Assembly (NCBI GenBank): GCA_029213065.1
Contig: JARGPH010000001.1
Coordinates: 310,001 to 374,000 of the forward strand
DNA length: 64,000 nucleotides
From: Verrucomicrobiales bacterium
GTDB taxonomy: Bacteria > Verrucomicrobiota > Verrucomicrobiia > Verrucomicrobiales > DEV007
Reading direction: 5' to 3'
This document shows, piece by piece, positions 2,516 through 21,427 of this stretch. The notes below the pieces were generated by a model that did no database searches, was not told the DNA's origin, and saw only the letters and a list, made by a program, of their open reading frames with translations. Made by a program: the position numbers and the translations under genes. The stretch's first letter is position 1. Each line of letters starts with the position of its first letter.

Positions 2516-4156
2516 TCAAGCTCTTCGAGCGCGTTTGTGGAGATCTCCGGGAACGGGGACAGCGTCGATCAAATTACGCGTGTATTCCGACCGGGGATTC
2601 TCGATCAGGTCGACGGTCTGCCCCGCCTCGACGACCTTTCCATGCCTCATCACCGCTGTCCGGTCACAGATACGCTTCACGACGCTGAGGTCGTGGGAGA
2701 TGAAAAGATAGGCAAGTCCGAGCTTGTCGCGCAGTTCCATGAGAAGATCAATCACCTGCGCCTGAATCGTAACGTCGAGCGCGGAGACCGCTTCATCGCA
2801 GACCACAAACTTAGGCTTCGGTGCCACCGCACGCGCCACGCAGATCCGCTGGCGCTGCCCCCCTGAAAACTCGTGGGGGTAGCGGTTCATGTTGTCGGCA
2901 GGAAGGCCGACTTCCTCCAGCCAGTGGGCCGCAACCTCTTTGCGATCCCCTTCGAGGAGATTGTGCTCGATGAGCCCTTCCGTGAGAATTTCCAGGACGG
3001 TGAGGCGCGGGTTGAGCGACGAAAACGGATCCTGAAAGATCATCTGCATCTCCTTCCGGTAGGGCAACATCGCGTGATAACCCAGCCCGCGAATGTGATT
3101 TCCTTCGAAAAGTATCTCTCCTTCCTGCGATTCCTCTAAAGCGAGAATGGATCGTCCCAGGGTTGTTTTCCCACTGCCGGACTCGCCCACGATTCCGAGG
3201 CACTCCCCCGCAAACAAATCAATCGAGACATCATCGACCGCTTTGATCCAGTCGACCGTCTTCGCAAAAACACCGCTCTTCACCGGAAACCAGGTTTTGA
3301 GATGCTTCACCTCAACAAGTGGCTTGGCATCCTCGTGGCGATCCGGCTGGGCAATCGGCTCATCAGTGAGGCGGGGAACCGCAGCGAGCAACTGCTGCGT
3401 GTAAGGCTCCTGCGGATTGTTGAAAATCGGCTCGACGTCGCCCCGCTCCACGACCTTGCCGTCCTTCATCACGAGGACACGGTCCGCGAGTTCCCAGATC
3501 ACTCCCATGTCATGAGTGATGAAGAGAATCGAGGTATCCTCTTTTTTCATCTCGAGAATGAGATCAAAAATCTGAGCCTGCAGCGTCACATCGAGCGCGG
3601 TGGTCGGTTCGTCGGCAATAATCAGTTTCGGCTGCAGAATCAGCGCCATCGCAATCATGACGCGCTGGCGCATCCCACCCGAAAACTGAAACGGGTATGA
3701 CTTGGCCCGCTCTTCGGGATCGGGGATCCCCACTTTCCCCAACCATTCGACCGCTCTCGCCCAGGCAGCTTCCTTCGTCACCTCGGGATCATGAATCCGC
3801 ACCACTTCCGCGAGCTGCGTGCCCACAAAGTGGAGCGGGGACAAGGCCGTCATCGGCTCCTGAAAAATCACACTGATGTCTTTCCCCCGAATCTTCCGCA
3901 TCTCTTCGACAGGCAGCTTCAAAATATCGCGTCCCTCGAAAAGAATCTTACCGGTTTCGACCACCCCCGGAGGACTTGGGACGAGTCGAAGCGTCGACAT
4001 CGCACTGACCGACTTCCCACTCCCCGATTCTCCTACCAATCCCACAATCTCCCCGGGACGGATATCAAAAGAAACATCATCGACCGCACAGATCCGTCGA
4101 CCTTCGACATCGAAGGTAACCGTCAGATTTTCCACGCTTAGCAGTTTGTCAGACAT
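2516..4156 (-). CDS. yejF: Microcin C/oligopeptide ABC transporter, fused double ATPase (YejF-like)
   Basis: A 546-residue protein with two complete ABC ATPase domains in tandem, the arrangement of YejF and of DppD-DppF fusions. Domain 1 has Walker A GESGSGKS (42-49), Q-loop IFQEP (near 98), signature FSGGMRQR (158-165), Walker B LIIADEP with the catalytic Glu, and H-loop ITHD. Domain 2 has GESGSGKT (324-331), [13 protein letters not shown] (430-437) and [11 protein letters not shown]. All catalytic residues are present in both halves, so it should power the YejBE permease at the inner membrane. The ATG at 4156 was preferred to the upstream one at 4216 because it leaves 4 bases after the yejE stop and starts the standard [11 protein letters not shown] leader; the longer form would overlap yejE. 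It is the last gene of the yejA-B-E-F operon. Confidence 0.95.
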
Positions 4157-4160
4157 TACG

Positions 4161-5753
4161 TTACTCAAGTTTCGAATTGGTTCGAGGATCAAAAGCCGCA
4201 CGAACGCCTTCCCCAATGAAAATACCCAGCAAGCTCACGATAAAGAGCGCCAGTGAAGGATAAAGAATGAGCCACCACGCGTATTGCTGGACCTGCCCCT
4301 GGTCGAGGAGGTTCCCCCAACTCGGCGTTCCCGGAGGCAGCCCGAAGCCGAGGTAGTCGAGCGCGGTAAGCATGAAAATCGAACCCACAAGCGAGAAGGG
4401 AAAGAACGTAATCACCGGAACGAGCGCGTTCGGGAGAATGTGGCGGAACATGATTTTCCACCGTCCGATTCCCATGACGCGGGCGGCTTCAACAAAGGGA
4501 AGTTTCCGAAGACGCAGGAACTCGGCTCGCAAATAATAGGAGATTCCGATCCAGTTGAAGATCCCGTAAATGATTCCGAGGAGCACGAAGCTGCGCCCAT
4601 AAATCGAGCTGAGCAGAATCATGATAAGAAGGAAAGGCATCGCCTCCCAGATCTCGGTAAGCCGCTGACCGACCATATCAATCTTCCCGCCGAAATACCC
4701 CTGAATCGATCCCAGAAAAATTCCTATCACGTAGGTGAAAATGACGAGGATAATCCCGAACAAAAGTGCGGTTCGGGTGGCGTAAAGGATGCGAACACCA
4801 ACATCACGTCCACTGTTATCGAGACCGAAGGCATGCCCTTTAACCGGGCGGAACGGAAACTCCACCGTCTCTTTCTCAAACTGCACCGCAAATTTACCAT
4901 CCGTGTCTGAAACGGAAAGTGTCTCCTGGGGAACCACCATGGCCTCTTTAGCCGTCTCGAGAATTCTCGCCTTGTTCTCATCCGAGAAACGATCCCACAA
5001 GGCGGGCTTTGCAGAGACGAATTCCATCTCCGGAGTCATCACGGCGCGCTCATCCGCTTCCTTTCCCGCCTTCCGCGTCATCGAGAGTCGCACCAGTTTC
5101 GGAGCACGACTCCTCGGTTTCGCGGCATCGAGTTCAAAAAGAATCCCCTCCTCATTCGTCGCCGATACGGCATCATCCGCCTTATTCGCAAATCGAAGCG
5201 CGATCCCTCCGCGAATTGGCTCCGGCACCGAAACGCCCTCAACCTCCAGTGGCTTGCGTCGAATCTCGAGATCCGAGGTCTCCCCGTAAAATCCCGCGGC
5301 ACCACGACTGCGCTGAATCACCGATTTGCTGTCGATATCGACAGTGGCAACCTGATCCTCCGCTGAGAAGGTCAATGTCAGGGTCGGATCAATCTCAATC
5401 TGAGACGGCTCGAGCGATTCCTCCGGGCCGTTTCTCACCAGCGGCCAGAGCATCCAGTTGTCTTCGTTTTCCTCAAAAAGTGGAAGCTTCTCCAAATCCT
5501 TGTAACGGGGACGTGTCTGGACTTCCCCGCCGGTGAACTCACTCTGAGGATAAAACTTAAACACGGGGACGTAGAGCTTCCCGTTCGCCTTCACCAGAAA
5601 CGGTTTATCGTTTGCGATGAAGTTTGAAAACAAGCTGATCACAAAAATGGCGACGAGAAGAGTCAGAGCCCATTTGGCCCGCTTAATCTGGCCGAAACGA
5701 CGCAGACGGCGACGCGTATTCGGATCGAGAACGGCTGTGAAAAATCCTCCCAT
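4161..5753 (-). CDS. yejE: Peptide ABC transporter permease YejE with enlarged periplasmic insert
   Basis: Inner-membrane permease of the DppC/YejE family. It has a cytoplasmic basic start, helix 1 at about residues 28-46, and a following segment FIANDKPFLV that matches YejE. The permease core starts near residue 310 (GLDNSGRDV, then about five helices) and carries the ATPase-coupling EAA loop EAARVMGIGRWK. At 530 residues it is far longer than the roughly 340 of E. coli YejE. The surplus lies between about residues 110 and 300, in the periplasmic loop after helix 1, and looks like a beta-rich domain. It shares one base with the yejB stop (TAATG junction at 5753), which implies coupled translation. 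The transporter type is clear; the role of the insert is unknown. Confidence 0.93.
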   Translation of the reverse strand: MGGFFTAVLDPNTRRRLRRFGQIKRAKWALTLLVAIFVISLFSNFIANDKPFLVKANGKLYVPVFKFYPQSEFTGGEVQTRPRYKDLEKLPLFEENEDNWMLWPLVRNGPEESLEPSQIEIDPTLTLTFSAEDQVATVDIDSKSVIQRSRGAAGFYGETSDLEIRRKPLEVEGVSVPEPIRGGIALRFANKADDAVSATNEEGILFELDAAKPRSRAPKLVRLSMTRKAGKEADERAVMTPEMEFVSAKPALWDRFSDENKARILETAKEAMVVPQETLSVSDTDGKFAVQFEKETVEFPFRPVKGHAFGLDNSGRDVGVRILYATRTALLFGIILVIFTYVIGIFLGSIQGYFGGKIDMVGQRLTEIWEAMPFLLIMILLSSIYGRSFVLLGIIYGIFNWIGISYYLRAEFLRLRKLPFVEAARVMGIGRWKIMFRHILPNALVPVITFFPFSLVGSIFMLTALDYLGFGLPPGTPSWGNLLDQGQVQQYAWWLILYPSLALFIVSLLGIFIGEGVRAAFDPRTNSKLE

Positions 5754-6799
5754 TACGCTTCTTTTCCAAAGTTAATGCGAGGATCCACAAGCACGTAGCA
5801 AAAGTCGGAGAGGACCCGACCTAACAAGCTCAGAATCGAGGTGAGACCGAGCGTGCCCATGAAGATCATGTAATCCCGGCCGACGATGGCATCGAGCGTC
5901 AGCATCCCGATTCCGTTAATCGAAAAGACCCGCTCGATCAAAACCGACCCGGCAAACATGAGCGTAAGAATTCCGCCGATTCCGGTAACGATAGGGATCA
6001 GCGCGTTGCGAACCGCATGCCCCCAGATGGCCCGTCGCATCGTGCCTCCCTTTGCGAGAACCGTCCTCACGTAGTCCTGCGAAATCTGATCCAGCAGAGA
6101 GTTTTTCATGAGGATGGTCAGAATCGCAAAGTTGCCGATCACGTAGCAAAGCACAGGGAGAAACATATGATGCGCCTGATCTTTGACCTTTTCCCAACCG
6201 GTCAGGGAATCCCACTCCTCGGACCTGAAACCGCCGATGGGAAACCAGTCGAAAAAGTTGTCAGAAGTCCCGCTGAAGAGCGTTTTCAAAATCATCCCGA
6301 AGGCAAATGCGGGAATCGCATAGAGAATCAGGACGACCACAGACGAGAGCATGTCAAAGGTCGAACCATTGCGAAGCGCCTTGGCAATACCAAGGGGAAC
6401 ACAGATCAAATAGGTGAGCACAAACCCCGTCACCCCGAAGGTGAGGGAAATAGGAAAACGCTCCTTGATGAGCTGCCACACTGTCTTGTTGTTGTATTTG
6501 TAGGAATAGGATTTCATTCCCATCATGTCAGTGAAGAGCCATTTCCCATAGCGAACCAGAAACGGCTTATCGAAACCAAACTCCCGCTCAATCGCCTCTC
6601 TTTGATCCTGGGTAATCGAACTCGATGCGCCCGCTCCGGAACCCGACTCACCGCCGCCCATCCCGCGCATCTGAGCGATGCGCTGCTCGACAGGACCTCC
6701 GGGCAATACCGTGGTGAGACCGAAAACGATGAAAGTGATCCCCAGAAAAGTGGGGATGACGAGAAGCAATCGACGAATGAAATAGCTCAGGCGTTCCAT
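5753..6799 (-). CDS. yejB: Peptide ABC transporter permease YejB
   Basis: A 348-residue integral membrane protein of the DppB/YejB family, partner of YejE. The N-terminal helix (about 8-30: LLLVIPTFLGITFIVFGLTT) is followed by a periplasmic loop containing LPGGPVEQ and a Gly/Ser-rich linker (about 45-60). FGFDKPFLVRYGKWL is the family's typical pre-helix segment. About five further helices follow, with the ATPase-contact loop ending in RNALIPIVTGIG. The length is normal for YejB. It lies 27 bases after yejA and overlaps yejE by one base, so the order yejA-yejB-yejE-yejF is the usual operon order. Confidence 0.94.
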   Translation of the reverse strand: MERLSYFIRRLLLVIPTFLGITFIVFGLTTVLPGGPVEQRIAQMRGMGGGESGSGAGASSSITQDQREAIEREFGFDKPFLVRYGKWLFTDMMGMKSYSYKYNNKTVWQLIKERFPISLTFGVTGFVLTYLICVPLGIAKALRNGSTFDMLSSVVVLILYAIPAFAFGMILKTLFSGTSDNFFDWFPIGGFRSEEWDSLTGWEKVKDQAHHMFLPVLCYVIGNFAILTILMKNSLLDQISQDYVRTVLAKGGTMRRAIWGHAVRNALIPIVTGIGGILTLMFAGSVLIERVFSINGIGMLTLDAIVGRDYMIFMGTLGLTSILSLLGRVLSDFCYVLVDPRINFGKEA

Positions 6800-6826
6800 G
6801 TGAATGAAAAATTCAGCAGGATACGT

Positions 6827-8629
6827 TTACTGGACCGGCTCAATCGCAACCGGAGTCGCGGCACCGGCATCAAACACCTTGTCGAAGTAGACTTCGCGAG
6901 GCGGCGCAGGCAATTTCTCGCCGCTTTCCTTGGCCGCTTCGAAATCATCCGCCTGGAATTCGTCGTTCCACCAGTAATCCACCGCAGACCACTCGCCGTC
7001 GTATTTACCGAGGACGTGGTCCGGCATTCCGAATTTGTTCCAGTAGAGCAATCTCGCGTAGCTGACATGCCAGAGAAGGATGTAAGGGGTCTCCTCATAC
7101 AAAATTTGATCGATCTCACGAATCACTTCGTGGCGTTCCTCAACGCTGTACATCTCACGAGTGCTGTCGATCAGCGCGTCCACTTTCTCATTCTTAAAGC
7201 CAGTGATGTTACTGCTTGCCTTCACATCAGCGGTCGCTGAATACCACATCGTCTCAGGATCTTTGATGGGACTTCCACCCCAGCTTGCCCAGGTCATGTC
7301 GTAATTGAATTCATCCATGTCGCGGGCCCAGGCCGCCCAGTCCTTCTGATCGATCTCGAGCTCGATGCCGACGTCTTTCAGTGCCTCTTCATAAATGAGC
7401 AAAAACTTCGTCGTGCTCGGATCACGGGTCAGAAAGTTGATCACGAAAGCTTTGCCGTCCTTTTCCAGCTTACCGGTCTTCGGATTCACCGCCCAGCCCG
7501 CTTCTTTGAGCAGCGCCCGCGCCTTCTCAACATCAAACTCAATGAGCTCATTCGGACAGGGATGTTCAGCATCCCAGAGGTCCGTCCAGTAGGATTTCGA
7601 AAGGTCATACTGATTGAACATGATCGTCTGATTCATCCGCTCGCGATCGAGGAGGTGGCTCAAAGCCTTGCGCACCCGCTTATCATCGTAGGGCTTTTTC
7701 CGCATGTTCATCGCGAAGCCCTGGAAAACGACCGGCTCGGAGTTGTGAACCGACTGCTTCACGACCCAGTTTTTCGCAAATCGCTCCCCTTCGGTCTCTT
7801 TGACCCAGCGACTCGAGGTGTAGACCGCAAAGAGGTCGAACTCGCCTTTATTAAACGCCTCGAAAGCAATGTCGCGCTGCGAATAGAAACGGTATTCGAT
7901 CGTGTCGAAATTCAGAATTCCCTCATTCTCAACCGAATCAGCGTTCCAGTAATCCTCACGCTTCTCAAGGCGCGCGTAGTGCTGCTCGTTCACCTCGCCG
8001 AGGCGATAGGGACCTGACACGACCGGAAATTCGAAATTCACTTTGTTAAAATCCTGATCTTTCCACCAGTGCTTCGGCATGACGCGAAACGCGCTGCAGG
8101 CCTGCAAATTTTTCCAATGCACCTCTTCAGCCTCGATCACGACGGTATGTTCATCGGTTGCCTCGATCTTGACGAGACGCTTCATCACATTCTGCAGGGG
8201 GCCGGTGAGGTGATCCGGATTCTTAATCGCATTGAAGCTCCAAACGACATCCTCCGAGGTGAGCGGCTTTCCATCACTCCATTTCGCCTTCGGATTGAGG
8301 TGAAAGGTAAAAAAGAGGCCATCCTCCGAGATTGACCAGCGATTCGCGAGTCCGGGACTGTCCTCCAGGGTTACCTGATCCGAACCGAGCAATGGCTCGA
8401 ACATGAGCCTGAAAATCTCGCGGGCAAAAACGTTGTTTTCGATCTGGTAGTTGAAACTCTTTGGAAACTGAGCCGCATACATCGAGATCTTGCCCCCTGG
8501 CTCTGCAAATTCGGACGCCAGAGGCGACATCGCCGGTTCCCAGCCTTCAGCGGGAAATTCTTCAGCAAAAAGGGCACCGCTGGCGGGGATCAGGGCGAGG
8601 ACGAGGGAAACGAGGCGGATTTTTGTCAT
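6827..8629 (-). CDS. yejA: Extracellular peptide-binding protein, family 5 (YejA-like)
   Basis: A 600-residue periplasmic solute-binding protein that would deliver oligopeptides to YejBEF. The N-terminus is a standard signal peptide (about residues 1-22, ending ASGALFAEE) with no lipobox cysteine, so it should be soluble in the periplasm. Family 5 features include FREIFRLMFEPLL-like and ANRWSISEDGLFFTF segments, then WSDGKPLTSEDVVWSF (about 115-130), the YejA-like middle region with KREDYWN, and a C-terminal YARLLYWNKFG. It is the first gene of the yejABEF operon; about 210 non-coding bases separate it from the divergent LamG gene, and the operon promoter is expected there. The precise substrate cannot be read from sequence. 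Confidence 0.93.
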   Translation of the reverse strand: MTKIRLVSLVLALIPASGALFAEEFPAEGWEPAMSPLASEFAEPGGKISMYAAQFPKSFNYQIENNVFAREIFRLMFEPLLGSDQVTLEDSPGLANRWSISEDGLFFTFHLNPKAKWSDGKPLTSEDVVWSFNAIKNPDHLTGPLQNVMKRLVKIEATDEHTVVIEAEEVHWKNLQACSAFRVMPKHWWKDQDFNKVNFEFPVVSGPYRLGEVNEQHYARLEKREDYWNADSVENEGILNFDTIEYRFYSQRDIAFEAFNKGEFDLFAVYTSSRWVKETEGERFAKNWVVKQSVHNSEPVVFQGFAMNMRKKPYDDKRVRKALSHLLDRERMNQTIMFNQYDLSKSYWTDLWDAEHPCPNELIEFDVEKARALLKEAGWAVNPKTGKLEKDGKAFVINFLTRDPSTTKFLLIYEEALKDVGIELEIDQKDWAAWARDMDEFNYDMTWASWGGSPIKDPETMWYSATADVKASSNITGFKNEKVDALIDSTREMYSVEERHEVIREIDQILYEETPYILLWHVSYARLLYWNKFGMPDHVLGKYDGEWSAVDYWWNDEFQADDFEAAKESGEKLPAPPREVYFDKVFDAGAATPVAIEPVQ

Positions 8630-10406: not shown

Positions 10407-11463
10407 CTAACCGACGACATCCTTTCGCAAATCGCGATAGGAATGTAGCTCGCCCCATCTCGCACCGCGCATTCGGCGCGCTCCGCTCGCACGCGTTGGA
10501 TCAGCTCGACCATTCGCCTGCTCGCGCAAAAACACCCCTTCGACAAAGCCGGCTGATCCTAAAATCGCGCCATCGCAAAAATACCTCACCCGGCAGCGAA
10601 GCGCTTCCGGTATCGTCATCGCCCCGCCTCGTTCCACAACTGCTTCGACCTTCTGACCCTCCATTCCGCGACGCGCCCCTTCACCTGTGATCTCATTCGC
10701 CTCGCGCGCCTCCCCTTCCTCATACAAAAACTGACGATACCGATTCATCGTCCGACGCCAATCGGTGCGCAGTTCATCATCACTCAGGCATTCCGCCATG
10801 ATCTGCCCTAATCCCTTTCGCGCGAGCTGCGCCCCACGCGTTCCTGAAATCGCTTCCGAGTAACCGCACCACCGGTAATCCTCAGGGCGCTTCACCAGCC
10901 CCGCCCTCACAGGATTGAGATCAATATAGGCGGCAACCGTCAGCAAAGCCATCTCGCTCCCCTCAATAAGAACGCTCTTGTAACGACCTTCCCAAAACGT
11001 CCCCCGACGTTTCAAGCGCTTGTTCATATAGCTCGTGATCCGCTGCTTGAACGACTTCATGAATTCCGACAACTTCCCTCGTCGCCTCTCATAGCGATCG
11101 AGAATCTCGCGGACATGACGGTCATCTCCCGCCGCATGCGCCCGCTCCAACTCCTGCCGTATCCCATCAACCACCAACGGCTCATACAATCCTTCCAGAT
11201 GTCCCAGAACCTCATCCTCCGAAAGCCGCTCGAGATCGCCTTCATCCGGAACCTCGATCAGGAGATGGAAATGCGGGGGTCGCCTTCGACTTGCCCATGA
11301 AGCAGTAGGTAACAACCCGAACGCCCAGGAACGCTTCCAACGACCGCATCATCTTCCTGAAAACCGCCTTATCCTTGTCTTTAAATACAATCTTCCGACC
11401 CACGACACGCGAGACACAGTGGTAAAACGATCGACCTTCCCCAAGCAAACGAGCAGTTCTCAT
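10407..11463 (-). pseudogene. REP-associated tyrosine transposase (RAYT, IS200-like), frame-disrupted
   Basis: Two minus-strand frames together give one Y1/HUH transposase. The N-terminal frame starts at the ATG at 11463 and reads MRTARLLGEGRSFYHCVSRV through VVTYCFMG. The protein continues in another frame as HFHLLIEVPDEGDLERL to the stop at 10407. Between the G of CFMG and the HFH (HUH metal-binding motif) lie 19 bases (about 11285-11303) where the family has only one codon (GNHFHLL). A net insertion of about 16 bases would explain both the frame change and the lost Asn. The C-terminal half is intact: YIDLNPVRAGLV, then the verrucomicrobial-type tail MTIPEALRCRVRYF and MRGARWGELHSYRDLRKD. 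RAYTs act on short palindromic REP sequences, and REP-like palindromes lie just upstream. The element is probably inactive unless frameshifting restores it. Confidence 0.82.
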
Positions 11464-12393: not shown

Positions 12394-13347
12394 TTAGCGA
12401 TCATTTTCAATGGCTGCGCAACAAAGCGCTTCAACAGCTTGAGCAATTTTCCCTAAAAATTCGCCCACAAAGATTTCCTTGTTACTCATAAACGGTATTG
12501 TGACAGGTCGAGTGAGTTCACTCATATCGACGCCTGAAGAGTGACAACACTGGAAAGTGACATGCCCTGCATCATCCGGAGTGCCATCAATAATGCTTTT
12601 CAGAGTATAATACCGGCCCTTGAAATTCCCCTTTGCGTCTCTCCTCCCGTTCGGCTCGACAAGTGGGCTATCGCCCCACCTTGATCCGTGTAAAACCAAA
12701 AAATAGTAGTCCGCACCTGATGAAAGCTGATTCTGCAAGGCCTCCAAAGTAAGCGGAGAATTCGCGCCATGTTCGACAATTTCATAATTATTCCAAGGGC
12801 ACGTTATACCTTCATTTCCATCTTCGAAGTTTTTAATTCCTTGAGCAATATATTTTTCGACATTTGCTTTCGAAGTTATTGGACTTGATGACAACCATGT
12901 CCACGGTGGCCCGCCATTCCCGCCGCCGTTGCGATTCGGAATCGCACTCGGTCCAGCTCCGTGGGGACCAAGAATAATCTTAAGTTTCTCATTCCCCTCG
13001 AGTAACCCCAGCAGATCAACATACCCAACCCCATCATTCCCGACGAACCCATACAAGTTCACCCCACCCCGTTCCTGGAAAGGATCCCTGGACGCCCACC
13101 TGCCAGTTTGCGGCATATAATATCTGAAGCCGTAATAACTCCAGCCGGTCGACTCTTCCACTGGCTTCGTCGAAAATCTCCAGGAATTCGTTTCGGCTTC
13201 AGCTCCAGTTGACTCGGTTACATTGCCAAAAGGGTCGTAGCTGTATGCCGCTTTCAACTCGCCTGCTTCATCGATTAACTGTCCGACATTTCCGTTGGCA
13301 TCATAAGCAGGATAACGATGTTCATCGCTCCCAGTAATCGCTAGCAA
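12394..13347 (-). CDS. 5'-truncated RHS-repeat protein with C-terminal caspase/CHAT-like domain
   Basis: The nominal start is a TTG at 13347 (317 residues), but RHS homology continues upstream in the same frame (NSYLYDGWNLLAEVEENHKS) to a stop at 13534-13536 that lies inside a 15-bp repeat. The usual 1000-plus residue RHS shell is therefore missing. Visible are the last YD repeats (YDANGNVGQLIDEAGELKAA, then SYDPFGNV) and the RHS-associated core RYYMPQTGRWASRDPF through NLYGFVGNDGVGYVDLLGL, after which polymorphic tips begin (about residue 115). The tip has two motifs in caspase order: YYFLVLHG (His220) and VTFQCCHSSG (Cys267/268), about 47 residues apart, each after a hydrophobic strand, as in the caspase/CHAT His-Cys dyad. 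I infer a peptidase toxin tip. Expression from such a fragment is uncertain. Confidence 0.8.
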   Translation of the reverse strand: MLAITGSDEHRYPAYDANGNVGQLIDEAGELKAAYSYDPFGNVTESTGAEAETNSWRFSTKPVEESTGWSYYGFRYYMPQTGRWASRDPFQERGGVNLYGFVGNDGVGYVDLLGLLEGNEKLKIILGPHGAGPSAIPNRNGGGNGGPPWTWLSSSPITSKANVEKYIAQGIKNFEDGNEGITCPWNNYEIVEHGANSPLTLEALQNQLSSGADYYFLVLHGSRWGDSPLVEPNGRRDAKGNFKGRYYTLKSIIDGTPDDAGHVTFQCCHSSGVDMSELTRPVTIPFMSNKEIFVGEFLGKIAQAVEALCCAAIENDR

Positions 13348-16670: not shown

Positions 16671-17573
16671 CTACAAACCCTCCGCAGCTTTCCGGGCGAT
16701 GTCCGCAGTCGAGTTCTCATGGACAACCTTTTCCGCCTCGGCGATCGCCTCACGACTGATCATGGGCAAAGCGCCGGGAAGGTGCGTGATCCGCGGTGAA
16801 CAGGCCCGGAACTCCTTCGAATACTGATATTGCGGCCTTTCCAGAATCTGACTCGAGGGACCGCACTCCAGGATCCCGCCCTCATAAAAAATCGCAACGC
16901 GGTCAGCGACACCTTTGATCCCCCGAAGTCCGTTCATCGCAAGAACAACAGAGAGCCCGTAGTCATCACGGAGCGACGAGATCAGTTCGAAAAACTGCGC
17001 CTCGGCAATGCGATCAAGCCCGGCAGTGGCCCCGTCACAAACAAGCAGCCCGGCCCCGGACATGAGCGTTTTCATGAGGATGAGTCGCTTCAGCATGAGG
17101 GATGACAGATCGACCGAGAGCATCTCAAGGATGCGCTCCGGCTCGACAATCCCGACGGCATAGAAATAATCGCTCCAGTCACCCTCCCCCTTCGAACCGG
17201 TCAGCCGCGAACTTTCCCGCAGCCATTGCCTCACTTTCTGATTCGGATTCAGTTGTGAATGAGCGTCTTTCACGAGCACCGCGATCCGACTCCGACGGAG
17301 GTGAAGATTTTTCCTCCGATTCTGTCGCAGGATATCCTCTGATTCAAATTCGATGCTGCCGGAAATGACTTTGTCAGAGGGGCTGATCACTCCCGAAACC
17401 AACTGCGCGAGAAGTGATTTTCCACTGCCCGATTCACCGGCACAGACAAGGATCTCTCTCTCATGCAACTCGAGGGAAACATTTCGCAAACCGAGATCGC
17501 GCTCACCGAGCCCACGGGGACGCTCCACGGTGACGTTGCTGACGGTGAGTATTGGTTTCGTCCTTTCCTCCAT
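16671..17573 (-). CDS. Degenerate ABC ATPase of a peptide transporter operon
   Basis: A 300-residue Opp/Dpp-type ATPase domain in which only Walker A is intact (GESGSGKS, 46-53). The Q-loop reads VKDAHSQLNP where the family has FQDPxxSLNP (Gln replaced by Lys102). The signature reads LSSLMLKR (156-163) instead of LSGGQRQR. Walker B ends CDGATAGLD (179-187) with Gly181 in place of the catalytic Glu. The H-loop reads LAMNGL with Asn214 for His. The C-terminal regulatory extension typical of Opp ATPases is kept (RPQYQYSKEFRACSPR). It is the last gene of a four-gene operon with two permeases and a binding protein, and no second ATPase is present. ATP may bind, but hydrolysis looks unlikely without another subunit. 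The reading frame is intact, so it is maintained rather than a pseudogene. Confidence 0.88.
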   Translation of the reverse strand: MEERTKPILTVSNVTVERPRGLGERDLGLRNVSLELHEREILVCAGESGSGKSLLAQLVSGVISPSDKVISGSIEFESEDILRQNRRKNLHLRRSRIAVLVKDAHSQLNPNQKVRQWLRESSRLTGSKGEGDWSDYFYAVGIVEPERILEMLSVDLSSLMLKRLILMKTLMSGAGLLVCDGATAGLDRIAEAQFFELISSLRDDYGLSVVLAMNGLRGIKGVADRVAIFYEGGILECGPSSQILERPQYQYSKEFRACSPRITHLPGALPMISREAIAEAEKVVHENSTADIARKAAEGL

Positions 17574-17587
17574 AGCTCAATTTCTCT

Positions 17588-18469
17588 CTACCAGTATCGC
17601 TGCACTTCCCCGGTTCGCAGCAGTGAGGAAACTCTCCATCCCAGAAAGGAGAATATCATTACAACAATACTGGCCAACACTCCGGGATACACCGCCATCC
17701 AGGGAGCCTCGATAATGAGGTGCTGCCCATAGGCAATCATGGCCCCGCAACTGATCCGATTCCCTGTCACGCCGAGAAACGAAAGCATCATCTCAGCGAG
17801 CATGATCCATGGAATCATCACGGCAAAGGCACCGGCAAGACGCCGCAGCACCTTGGGTAAATCCCGATACATGATGATATCCCGTCGGGCCAAACCGAGC
17901 GCATAGCCGGCAACGACATCGAACTTTTCCTCCCCCTCTTCAAACCAGGAGGCAATCATCGGAGCCTGCTGAATTCCGATGAGAATGATCAGCGCCACCA
18001 TCACAGTGAGGAGACTCCCGCCGGAGCCTCCTGCCACGATTATCAGCAACACCATCGGAGGCGCGATGAACCCGGTTCGCCCGATAAGACGAATGAGACG
18101 AAAGCGATTCCCTCCCTGATCGAAAGCAAACAGCATCACAAAAGTGAGGGCGAGAAGGAGACCGAAACCGGAGCAAAGCACTGCCACGGCGAGTGAAGTA
18201 GCCATGGCAATACGACTGATTGTGAAGACATCCTTTCCGTGGCCTGTTGTCCCGAACCAGTGAACGGAATCGGGATCCTCCCAAAGGGGCTTATCCGGAA
18301 CGGAATACACCTCGGCCGGGCGGACATCGATTCCACTACCACCTGAAAAAAGCCATCCGGTAATGAGGAGATACAGCCCCGCGATGAAGACCACCCTCCG
18401 AATATGCCACACCCTCGCGAAGAGTGCCCCGAGCCAGAGAAGAGGCCGTGATTTGCGTTTGTTAGCCAT
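17588..18469 (-). CDS. Divergent peptide ABC permease (DppC-like)
   Basis: A 293-residue inner-membrane permease. Helix 1 (about 20-42: VVFIAGLYLLITGWLFSGG) is followed by a periplasmic segment with HWFGTTGHGKDVFTI, the DppC/OppC hallmark (GTDxxGRDV-like), and about five more helices. The coupling loop is weak: GYALGLARRDIIMYRDLPKVL. The start at 18469 overlaps the upstream permease stop by eight bases and gives MANKRKSRPLLWLG; a start 39 bases upstream would lie deep inside that gene. It is the third gene of the degenerate transporter operon, 15 bases before the ATPase gene. Confidence 0.85.
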   Translation of the reverse strand: MANKRKSRPLLWLGALFARVWHIRRVVFIAGLYLLITGWLFSGGSGIDVRPAEVYSVPDKPLWEDPDSVHWFGTTGHGKDVFTISRIAMATSLAVAVLCSGFGLLLALTFVMLFAFDQGGNRFRLIRLIGRTGFIAPPMVLLIIVAGGSGGSLLTVMVALIILIGIQQAPMIASWFEEGEEKFDVVAGYALGLARRDIIMYRDLPKVLRRLAGAFAVMIPWIMLAEMMLSFLGVTGNRISCGAMIAYGQHLIIEAPWMAVYPGVLASIVVMIFSFLGWRVSSLLRTGEVQRYW

Positions 18470-19328
18470 TGGTGACCTCCCCCGTTTGCAGGTGAACCGC
18501 GCAGTCACGCAGCCAGTTGATGATACTGATCAACCCGATGAGCCACATCGAACCGAGAATAATCCCCCCGTAGTTGGCGGCATTGACAGACTCAACGAGC
18601 AGGCTCCCCATGCCGCGATAACGAAAGGCGAATTCGATCCCGACGAGCAACCCGAAAAGAAGCGGAAGGGGACGATCAAGCGCTCGAATCAAAGAAATCC
18701 CCGCACCTTTGACGACGTGGTCGTAGAAGATGGATTCGCTGTTGTACCCGCCGACAAAAAGACCGTGAGTGTAGGGCCTCGACATCTCGGAAGAGATCGC
18801 ATTGAAAACAGACGTCATGAGCGAGGCACTTCCCGCAGCGATCAAGGGCAGAGCAACAATGAAGGCATGCCACCAACCGAGAAGGTCCGGGCCGGATGTC
18901 ACGATGACTTCATCGGCAAATCCGGGACGCTGCCAAATTGAGTAGGAGTAAATCGCTATAAGAATGACGAACCAGAATCCCGGAATCGCTGAGAACACCG
19001 AGAAAGGCAGCCTCAAAATGATTCCGATACGGTATCGACGAAGCCGGGCCGCGAGAAATCCCCATCCGTATCCGGTCAGCAGAACGCAGGATATCGCAAT
19101 CACGAGGACCCGCAGACTCGCCGCGCTTCGCTCACTGAAAAGAAGTCGAAAGCCGTCCATCCCCTCGACTTCACTTCCGAACGGCGTGTAGGAACCAGCC
19201 TGCCAGATGTGCTGATCTGAGCCGCCCAGACCGCAGAAAGCGAACTCGATCAGAAGCATGAGCAGGAGAAAGATCACACCGAGGCGGGCCGCTGAAAAGA
19301 AAAGGCGCTGGAGAATTAGACGGGTCAT
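18462..19328 (-). CDS. Divergent peptide ABC permease (DppB-like)
   Basis: A 288-residue membrane protein with a first helix at about 10-33, a long periplasmic loop (about 35-70) and five further helices, the DppB topology. The recognisable C-terminal landmarks are GIEFAFRYRGMGSLLVESV, corresponding to the DppB motif with E-x-xFxxxGxG, and the closing NWLRDCAVHL. The coupling loop (THGLFVGGYNSESIFYDHVV) departs strongly from the DppB consensus, and the protein is shorter than the usual 310-340. It overlaps the upstream binding-protein gene by four bases (ATGA) and the DppC-like gene by eight, so translation is tightly coupled. Confidence 0.83.
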   Translation of the reverse strand: MTRLILQRLFFSAARLGVIFLLLMLLIEFAFCGLGGSDQHIWQAGSYTPFGSEVEGMDGFRLLFSERSAASLRVLVIAISCVLLTGYGWGFLAARLRRYRIGIILRLPFSVFSAIPGFWFVILIAIYSYSIWQRPGFADEVIVTSGPDLLGWWHAFIVALPLIAAGSASLMTSVFNAISSEMSRPYTHGLFVGGYNSESIFYDHVVKGAGISLIRALDRPLPLLFGLLVGIEFAFRYRGMGSLLVESVNAANYGGIILGSMWLIGLISIINWLRDCAVHLQTGEVTNG

Positions 19329-21427
19329 GGCTCAACCGGCTGCAACGCCTCTTCCACGGCACTTTTCCGAACCCACCAGGCCCGGCTCCTTTCGAGGCCC
19401 GCCTTCCCGACCCCCAATCGCTGAACGATAGGCTCACCGCCCACACCCTCACGAATCACCTCCAGCGAATCAGCTCTCACCGTAATGAGACGCCCACTGT
19501 CGCCGATAAAAAGACAGGGCTGGAGCTCCGCGATCTCTTTTTGCAGCCTCGAAGTGAGCCGCTTCACATGGATGTTTTCCTCCTCGTAACGCAATTTAGT
19601 GACGGCCTCATCGACGAGCTGATTGCGAAGCCCGAATATATTGCTGCCGCTGCCGATTCCGGAGGAATGCCAGGTCGTGTAGCGATCCCGCTCAAGTGGC
19701 AGTTCCCAGTTTAAGATAAGCGCATCAAATTCGCGGGTTGAGAGACGGTCTCTCATCATCACTTCGCGGGAGACCGGGTCGAGTTCAACCGACACTCCCA
19801 ACGCAGACCACTGCGCGGCAAGTTCCTCCGCAAAATAGAGGTGATCCGAATTGCCCTCGTTCACGGTGAGCTTAAACGAAAACGGATTTCCCTCTGCATC
19901 GCGTCGAACCGCCGCCCCGTCTTCGAGCGTGAACCCGGCCTCATCAAGCATTCGCCCCGCCGCCACAGGATCATACAGGGGAAGCATCATTTTCTCATCG
20001 CAATAGGGAACCGCCGGATAAAAAAGACTTTCACTGGGTTGCTGGAACTGATCAATCGAATCCCGTCGCACCCTTTTCAAATCCACCCCTTTCGCCAGCG
20101 CGGTTCGCACCGAAATCCGGTCAAACGGCCCGGAGTCCAAATTCCAGGCGACGAAATGCTGGTAGCGCGGGAGGCAGGGAACGGTCTTCACCATTCCCGG
20201 ATTGCGCTCCGTCCACTTCACAAAGCGTTCATCCGGAACAATGACATGAAGCCGGTTCGATCGAATCGCGAGGAGGACCGATTCAAGTGATCCCGCCTCT
20301 TTGTAGACGAGACGCTTTTCCAGGGGCGGTTCGCGAAAGTAATTTTCATTCACCTCCAACTCCACCCCGCCATCGCGACGCCGCTTCACAAAACGGTAGG
20401 GGCCGTTTCCGACCGGATTGGCAAAAAACTGAAGTGCCTCCGCGGGCTTCTTCATTTTCGAAAAGAGATGAGCAGGAAGAACCGGCAGCTTTTCCCAACT
20501 CTCCAGCATCGTGGTCGGCTCATCATTACAATGAACCTTCAGGGTGAATTCGTCGACCCGCGTCAGGTCCTCGACGAACCAGAATGAATTTGCGAGAGGA
20601 AGCGATGAACCGGGCGCAGTGAACTGATTGTATGAGAAAAGAATATCATCCGCCCCGAAACGAACCCCGTCATGCCATCGCACATCGGTTCGCAACTTGA
20701 GCTCCATGACATGAAACGAGGTGTAACACTGCGTGCCCACGACCTCGATCTCGGGGTCCAGACTCCGGTTCGATTCGTAGTAGAGCTCGAGCTCTCTGAG
20801 GAACAGATCGGTGTCGCCTTTGAGAAATAGATTCACTGTGGAATCGCCCTCATACTCCAGCATTTTGATCTGAGTTTTCTCGACCGAGGCCTTTAAAAAA
20901 GTCTCAAATGACACCGCCACCGAATCCCGCAGACTCAGCTTTACGAGCAGGTAATCACCCAGCAGAACAGGGTCGATATTCCCGATCAGCTTTTTAGTGA
21001 GCCCGCCCTGAAACCCCTCAAGCCCGACCGTGAGAACCGTTTCATTTCGATCCACGGCCTCTGCATTGAGGCCGCCACTGAGAAACTCACCGGAGCGGAT
21101 CATCGCCTCGGTCTCTCCCGCCGCCTCTTCGCTCGCACAGCGTATCACGACGACAGTCTGAAAGGACCACGAATCAATCAGATTGGGGCGGAGGATCAAC
21201 TCATCATCACGCGTCAGGGTCGGCTCAAAAATGAGATCGGTGATCTCACGGGTGATCCCCTTTTGCGGAATGGCAGGGTCGAGATAGCCGACAGGTTCCC
21301 GGATCGCGGAAACCATCGCGGAACGATCATCGCTCAAGCTCAGGTCACTGACCCGGTTGAACAACCAAATCCCAACGCCGACAACAGCGATGGGAAAGGC
21401 ATAAAGTATCGCCCTGAGAAGGAACAT
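19325..21427 (-). CDS. Large family 5 solute-binding protein with internal insert
   Basis: A 700-residue binding protein, first gene of the degenerate transporter operon. It is anchored or exported by an N-terminal hydrophobic helix (about 5-24) without a lipobox or clear cleavage site. The opening PVGYLDPAIPQKGITREITD and LIFEPTLTRDDELILRPNLI are standard family 5. Between residue 90 and 238 there is extra sequence, after which the normal course resumes with ELKLRTDVRWHDGVRFGADD (242-261). The remainder is typical, with VNENYFREPPLEKRL and the C-terminal TTWHSSGIGSGSN-like region. The insert is absent from usual 520-600 residue members. It starts 88 bases downstream of the PQQ-propeller stop and overlaps the next gene by four bases. 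Confidence 0.87.
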   Translation of the reverse strand: MFLLRAILYAFPIAVVGVGIWLFNRVSDLSLSDDRSAMVSAIREPVGYLDPAIPQKGITREITDLIFEPTLTRDDELILRPNLIDSWSFQTVVVIRCASEEAAGETEAMIRSGEFLSGGLNAEAVDRNETVLTVGLEGFQGGLTKKLIGNIDPVLLGDYLLVKLSLRDSVAVSFETFLKASVEKTQIKMLEYEGDSTVNLFLKGDTDLFLRELELYYESNRSLDPEIEVVGTQCYTSFHVMELKLRTDVRWHDGVRFGADDILFSYNQFTAPGSSLPLANSFWFVEDLTRVDEFTLKVHCNDEPTTMLESWEKLPVLPAHLFSKMKKPAEALQFFANPVGNGPYRFVKRRRDGGVELEVNENYFREPPLEKRLVYKEAGSLESVLLAIRSNRLHVIVPDERFVKWTERNPGMVKTVPCLPRYQHFVAWNLDSGPFDRISVRTALAKGVDLKRVRRDSIDQFQQPSESLFYPAVPYCDEKMMLPLYDPVAAGRMLDEAGFTLEDGAAVRRDAEGNPFSFKLTVNEGNSDHLYFAEELAAQWSALGVSVELDPVSREVMMRDRLSTREFDALILNWELPLERDRYTTWHSSGIGSGSNIFGLRNQLVDEAVTKLRYEEENIHVKRLTSRLQKEIAELQPCLFIGDSGRLITVRADSLEVIREGVGGEPIVQRLGVGKAGLERSRAWWVRKSAVEEALQPVEP

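Follow-up and report, generated by a model that had tools for sequence, protein, structure and literature searches.

A peptide ABC transporter operon with a degenerate sole ATPase, conserved under purifying selection in a family of Verrucomicrobiales

Introduction

ATP-binding cassette (ABC) importers are textbook ATP-driven pumps, and in the dimer of their ABC domains each ATP site is formed by Walker A and Walker B of one subunit together with the signature motif of the other. Peptide importers of the Opp/Dpp/App kind include DppABCDF and OppBCDF of E. coli, OppABCD and DppABCD of M. tuberculosis, and AppA of B. subtilis; they share a family-5 substrate-binding protein (SBP), permeases of the OppB and OppC types, and the DppD/OppD ATPase fold. 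Here we describe an operon that resembles these importers in all three respects, found in a 64,000-nucleotide stretch of DNA (the window) from a Verrucomicrobiales bacterium (assembly GCA_029213065.1, 5.9 Mb in 80 contigs; contig JARGPH010000001.1, positions 310,001 to 374,000). Unlike them, it encodes one ATPase, from which catalytic residues are gone, and its SBP, whose best sequence match is AppA (1xoc), carries a predicted membrane helix and an insert of about 150 residues.

Excerpts of two papers describe ABC systems that hold one degenerate site beside one consensus site: type I exporters (PMC7756269) and RbsA/NupO of B. subtilis (PMC11466899). The window operon is similar to the systems in those excerpts in that an ABC domain has lost the signature, the Walker B Glu, and comparable residues; however, they are described as retaining one consensus site, and the window operon encodes none. 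Searches of the open-licence PMC literature turned up no account of a peptide importer operon with a dead sole ATPase, although one may still exist. In the family of bacteria to which the window belongs, this pseudo-ATPase system is conserved and is kept by purifying selection, and its machinery has probably been put to a use other than ATP-driven pumping.

Catalytic motifs and fold of the pseudo-ATPase

The operon spans positions 16671-21427 of the window on the minus strand, and its open reading frames follow the order SBP, permease B, permease C, ATPase. The last of these (16671-17573, 300 aa) has the OppD/DppD fold and matches Pfam ABC_tran at 1.6e-15; the nearest NCBIfam models are NikD, OppD, CntF, and CntD, all of which score far under their cut-offs. 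When the motifs are aligned to those of an intact double ATPase in the same window (2516-4216), Walker A (GESGSGKS, 17415-17438) is found to be intact, while the Q-loop Gln is replaced by Lys102 (17268-17270), the signature LSGGM reads LSSLM (residues 156-160, 17094-17108), Walker B (17031-17036) keeps Asp180 and has Gly181 at the catalytic Glu, and the switch His of the H-loop is replaced by Asn214 (16932-16934). An earlier note on this DNA had described an operon in which a single ATPase accompanies a binding protein and two permeases, and in which the signature, Walker B Glu, Q-loop Gln, and H-loop His are all altered in open frames; the motif alignment and the Pfam and NCBIfam matches bear out both parts of this description.

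The fold appears to be retained. An AlphaFold2 (AF2) model built on a ten-row alignment has a pLDDT of 83, and the solved structures nearest to it are of DppD/OppD (8z1x_C and 8z21_C, with TM of 0.75 and 0.80, respectively, to the query); the protein is thus predicted to have kept the fold and not the chemistry. Because the signature, Glu, and His are all missing, the canonical ATP site would be incomplete in a homodimer, and also in a dimer of this subunit with an intact partner. What the operon retains of a peptide ABC importer is the family-5 binding protein and the two OppB/OppC-type permeases; what it lacks is an ATPase that combines Walker A with the Q-loop Gln, LSGGQ, the Walker B Glu, and the H-loop His.

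Conservation across the family

Using a threshold of E <= 1e-60, the SBP is present in 25 of the 33 genomes of the window's genus. In the family as a whole it is found in 38 of 74 genomes—35 at this threshold, and G071-G073 at 3e-56 to 4e-60—and the operon occurs in seven genera. Orthologues of the ATPase were identified in 23 genus genomes, where they are set off by a clear gap in E-value (3e-39 or better, vs 1e-27 or worse for ordinary ABC ATPases). Family-wide, 36 of the 38 SBP-bearing genomes yielded the ATPase, and in the other two (G017 and G021) the sequence stops at contig ends. The gene order is maintained save at contig ends or where the operon has been split: G057 has the SBP alone at one place and B-C-ATPase-mrp at another, and G058 has SBP-B-C at one place and the ATPase at another. 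Loss of the ATPase from these two genomes was considered and rejected, as a genome-wide look found a degenerate ATPase elsewhere in both.

The signature Gly pair (LSGG) is absent from all 36 family ATPases, and the full catalytic set is found in none of the 35 that are readable over all motifs (L059 runs into a contig end and contributes only to the counts of Walker A, Q-loop, and signature). Counts of residues kept within the genus are 18/23 for Walker A Lys, 0/23 for the Q-loop Gln, 1/23 for the first signature Gly, 0/23 for the second, 10/22 for the Walker B Glu, and 0/22 for the H-loop His. The 11 ATPases of the other family genera keep Lys in nine, Gln in three, Glu in nine, and His in three; the first signature Gly occurs in none and the second in one, never both together. 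The two relocated ATPases (L191 and L192) are without Gln, both signature Gly residues, and His. Loss of the signature is therefore common to all 36, and Gln, Glu, and His have been lost to varying degrees by genus. Some members appear, by their residues, to represent intermediate stages of the loss: the ATPases of L094, L098, and L099 keep the switch His with Gln and signature gone, and those of L104-L106 keep Gln and Walker B with signature and His gone. The ATPases of the g18 members retain Gln and Glu.

The fetched family loci showed no further Opp-type ATPase next to the operon, so the description of the ATPase as "lone" in the earlier note holds family-wide at those loci. The arrangement is also distinct from that of a heterodimer with one degenerate site: each family locus has one Opp-type ATPase, and it is itself without the signature and Glu/His.

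Selection on the operon

Codon models were used because pairwise dN/dS is partly saturated; they were run on three genus clades with tree lengths of 3-12, and the resulting omega values are approximate, though far below 1. For the ATPase, omega is 0.097 (6 sequences), 0.104 (5), and 0.079 (4), and fixing omega at 1 is worse by 343, 286, and 224 log-likelihood (lnL) units, respectively. The other genes of the operon give similar values in the same three clades: 0.103, 0.112, and 0.051 for the SBP; 0.099, 0.048, and 0.074 for permease B; and 0.083, 0.091, and 0.068 for permease C. The adjoining mrp gene was run in two clades (omega of 0.045 and 0.024), and intact orthologous ATPases from other families have 0.042 (f31) and 0.079 (f58, where an overlapping start perhaps inflates the value).

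The constraint on the ATPase has taken a different form from that in its intact relatives. The ratio of ATPase to SBP divergence is 1.15 in the genus, 0.99 in the other family genera, and 0.64 in intact relatives, and of 115 positions that are fixed at 95% in the intact group, 45 are kept by at least half of the genus members, the other 70 by fewer. Other residues are newly fixed in the genus: Glu254-Phe255, where the intact group has Ala-Leu, and a C-terminal ISREA..EAE...H segment. Taken together, the faster divergence and the newly fixed residues show that constraint on this protein is changed, not absent. No in-frame stop was seen in any of the family orthologues listed, and these genes differ from decaying pseudogenes in both their open frames and their purifying selection. 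The earlier note had raised random decay in relatives as the mark of a dying operon, and such decay is not seen; its suggestion that the degraded ATPase might have been repurposed comes out strengthened, since the loss extends through the family and purifying selection acts on the gene.

Ancestry of the degenerate ATPase

Outside the family but within the class, orthologous single ATPases retain all catalytic residues (Lys, Gln, GG, Glu, and His) in 30 of 30 cases; set against the genus counts, this shows that the altered motifs are no chance feature. These 30 comprise L107 (family f4) and 29 loci out of 40 retrieved across the class, with three of the 43 non-family genomes left unfetched; the counts exclude 11 class loci in which the retrieved stretch contains no ATPase orthologue, an ABC-F gene (L093), and one unrelated ATPase each in L139 and L159. 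The ATPase of L195 is a 31st intact orthologue that falls outside the 30 counted. The intact ATPases sit in the same SBP-B-C-ATPase operon (L107 and L138-L177, where complete), and the SBP has the same anchor and insert; the difference from the window operon is that their ATPases are fully canonical. Profiles match the middle permease frame or frames of the f4 loci only weakly.

An importer of one SBP, two permeases, and one ATPase is thus the ancestral form; the chemistry of the ATPase was lost in the window's family and the operon was retained. In a tree of the SBPs, the 34 family rows lie together to one side of a branch supported by an SH-aLRT of 94, while in the first SBP alignment three family rows (g18) fell apart, with a support of 81. 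A single origin of the ATPase loss is therefore likely, though not proved by these trees.

The possibility that the SBPs of eleven class loci are orphans is not upheld, as permease B lies elsewhere in nine of ten orphan-SBP genomes searched (it was not found in G417, and G504 was left out of the search). Separately, we observed that in family f23, outside the window's own family (L148, L150, L152, L154, L157, and L158, together with L193-L201), the SBP gene is split from the permease gene; the latter sits at another place in the genome, and often neither C nor the ATPase adjoins it.

Binding protein and permeases

The SBP (19325-21427, minus strand, 700 aa) is a family-5 protein of the OppA/AppA/NikA type, with a match to Pfam SBP_bac_5 over residues 241-575 (7.3e-47). 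Its AF2 model keeps the family-5 fold (Z of 27.7 to 5u4o, rmsd of 4.6 over 455 residues) and begins with an N-terminal helix at residues 2-29, which we take as a membrane anchor. The insert, at about residues 88-240, is modelled as two beta-alpha-beta-beta-alpha-beta-like stretches. Since intact operons have the same insert, it is not tied to the loss of the ATPase; no relative of the insert was identified in whole-model fold searches, which were dominated by the SBP domain. Across the class (loci L138-L177), the insert of the family-5 SBPs is predicted to contain tandem ferredoxin-like strands and helices.

Permease B (OppB type; 18462-19328, minus strand, 288 aa) matches BPD_transp_1 of Pfam (4.3e-11) and Opp2B of NCBIfam (6.4e-13), and its frame overlaps the SBP stop by 4 nt. 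Permease C (OppC type), whose frame overlaps that of permease B by a few bases and ends 14 bases from the ATPase, has no match in Pfam; it matches NCBIfam OppC/NikC families, best Opp2C at 3.5e-21, which is under that model's cut-off. This frame is listed as 17588-18508, on the minus strand, but the listed GTG at 18508 is probably wrong; the ATG at 18469 (giving 17588-18469) seems the likelier start, because GGAGG at 18476-18480 precedes it and the start is conserved in the genus.

Both permeases have diverged from their intact counterparts. In the EAA loops, a Gly is kept in all members (Gly194 of B and Gly205 of C), and most other loop residues are not. Preferential loss of the docking loops finds no support: mean retention in the genus is similar in the loop and outside it (0.19 vs 0.27 for B, and 0.28 vs 0.28 for C).

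Neighbouring genes

Gene names in this paragraph, except that of the methyltransferase, come from reading the translations alone. The operon is followed on its 3' side by an Mrp/ApbC-type gene and a sulfatase, and preceded on its 5' side by a PQQ-propeller gene and an rpoN-type gene; at some loci an RsmB/F-type methyltransferase gene lies between the ATPase and mrp. Further away in the window, the translation of 10407-11315 resembles a REP-associated or IS200-like transposase, and 12394-13347 the C-terminal part of an RHS-repeat-like protein.

A complete second peptide system of the peptide/microcin (Yej-like) type is present at 2516-8629 on the minus strand, with a double ATPase, two permeases, and a 600-aa SBP. 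The fused double ATPase (2516-4216) has all motifs present, belongs to its own SBP/permease set, and lies 12 kb from the operon.

Possible functions of the complex

We tentatively favour, at a little short of even confidence, a ligand-responsive membrane complex in which the dead ATPase serves as a scaffold. The complex would no longer pump with ATP, as it would have no complete canonical site; the permeases and the membrane-tethered binding protein would form the responsive part, and the pseudo-ATPase would sit on the two permeases on the cytoplasmic side. Binding of a ligand outside would then shift the conformation of the permeases and pseudo-ATPase, and the shift could be signalled to a cytoplasmic partner, perhaps via the C-terminal segment that has become conserved in the pseudo-ATPase, or could open a passive path. 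We rank a receptor or regulator somewhat ahead of a passive gate. Retention of the dead ATPase even where the operon is split (G057 and G058) speaks for this proposal, as do the loss of the catalytic set throughout a family that keeps the operon, the intact ancestral state, the low omega values, the newly fixed residues, and the predicted persistence of the fold.

Several observations weigh against it. The SBP is missing from 8/33 genus genomes at the threshold used, so the operon is dispensable, and the retention of Walker A Lys (18/23) and Walker B Glu (10/22) makes nucleotide binding, perhaps with slow turnover, possible in many genus members. The docking loops are eroded about like the rest of the permeases, which singles out no changed coupling. 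No neighbour is common to all loci—rpoN, the PQQ gene, and mrp occur in subsets only—and no partner protein, ligand, signal output, or regulator gene common to all loci was identified. Finally, other Opp/Yej-type ATPases are encoded in all 32 genus genomes searched, which makes borrowing possible.

Borrowing would mean that the intact ATPase of another peptide system, either the Yej-type protein or a DppDF pair, drives the permeases, with the dead subunit as a place-holder or as a regulator that competes for the site. Related ATPases are at hand in every genus genome searched, that of the window has all its motifs, and an excerpt of PMC7658222 indicates that shared ATPases are known among type I importers. 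The earlier note had asked after an intact partner in close linkage, and the Yej-type ATPase is indeed nearby in the window; however, it has its own set, and as a linked partner it was rejected, because in the relatives looked at the linkage is not kept and the two systems lie on separate contigs (C7/C9 in G025, C53/C42 in G003, and C2/C41 in G006). Moreover, a place-holder would not be expected under a constraint like that on the permeases (omega of about 0.1), EAA-type residues are changed in both permeases, and the intact ATPases have permeases of their own. We thus consider a borrowed ATPase unlikely, and less likely than a sensor or gate.

About as unlikely in our estimation is an ATP-independent gated channel or facilitator, in which the loaded binding protein opens the permease path and the dead ATPase closes its cytoplasmic side. 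The motif and selection data fit it as they do a ligand-responsive complex, and CFTR shows that an ABC protein can become a channel; however, a binding protein feeding a downhill channel would yield little net uptake.

An ATP-driven importer with unorthodox chemistry is very improbable: the Lys and Glu kept in many genus members, and the Gln and Glu of g18, would be in its favour, but the signature Gly pair is never found, His is absent throughout the genus, and even Walker A Lys is lost in 5/23. Least probable of all is slow decay with residual conservation, since the eight genus genomes without the operon and an ATPase that evolves faster than those of intact relatives are set against frames free of in-frame stops, an ATPase omega of 0.08-0.10 with omega = 1 strongly rejected, and an operon kept across seven genera, even where split.

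Implications

It is possible, although we hold it slightly more loosely than our reading of the complex itself, that the whole family has made a receptor complex independent of ATP out of a peptide importer, with the pseudo-ATPase signalling or gating, and that stages of the loss survive in different genera, some of which keep the Q-loop Gln and some the switch His. A selected, lineage-wide loss, together with an intact form in sister families and half-way stages, provides a natural series on the role of an ABC domain that does not hydrolyse ATP, and cautions against labelling such operons as peptide importers in annotation.

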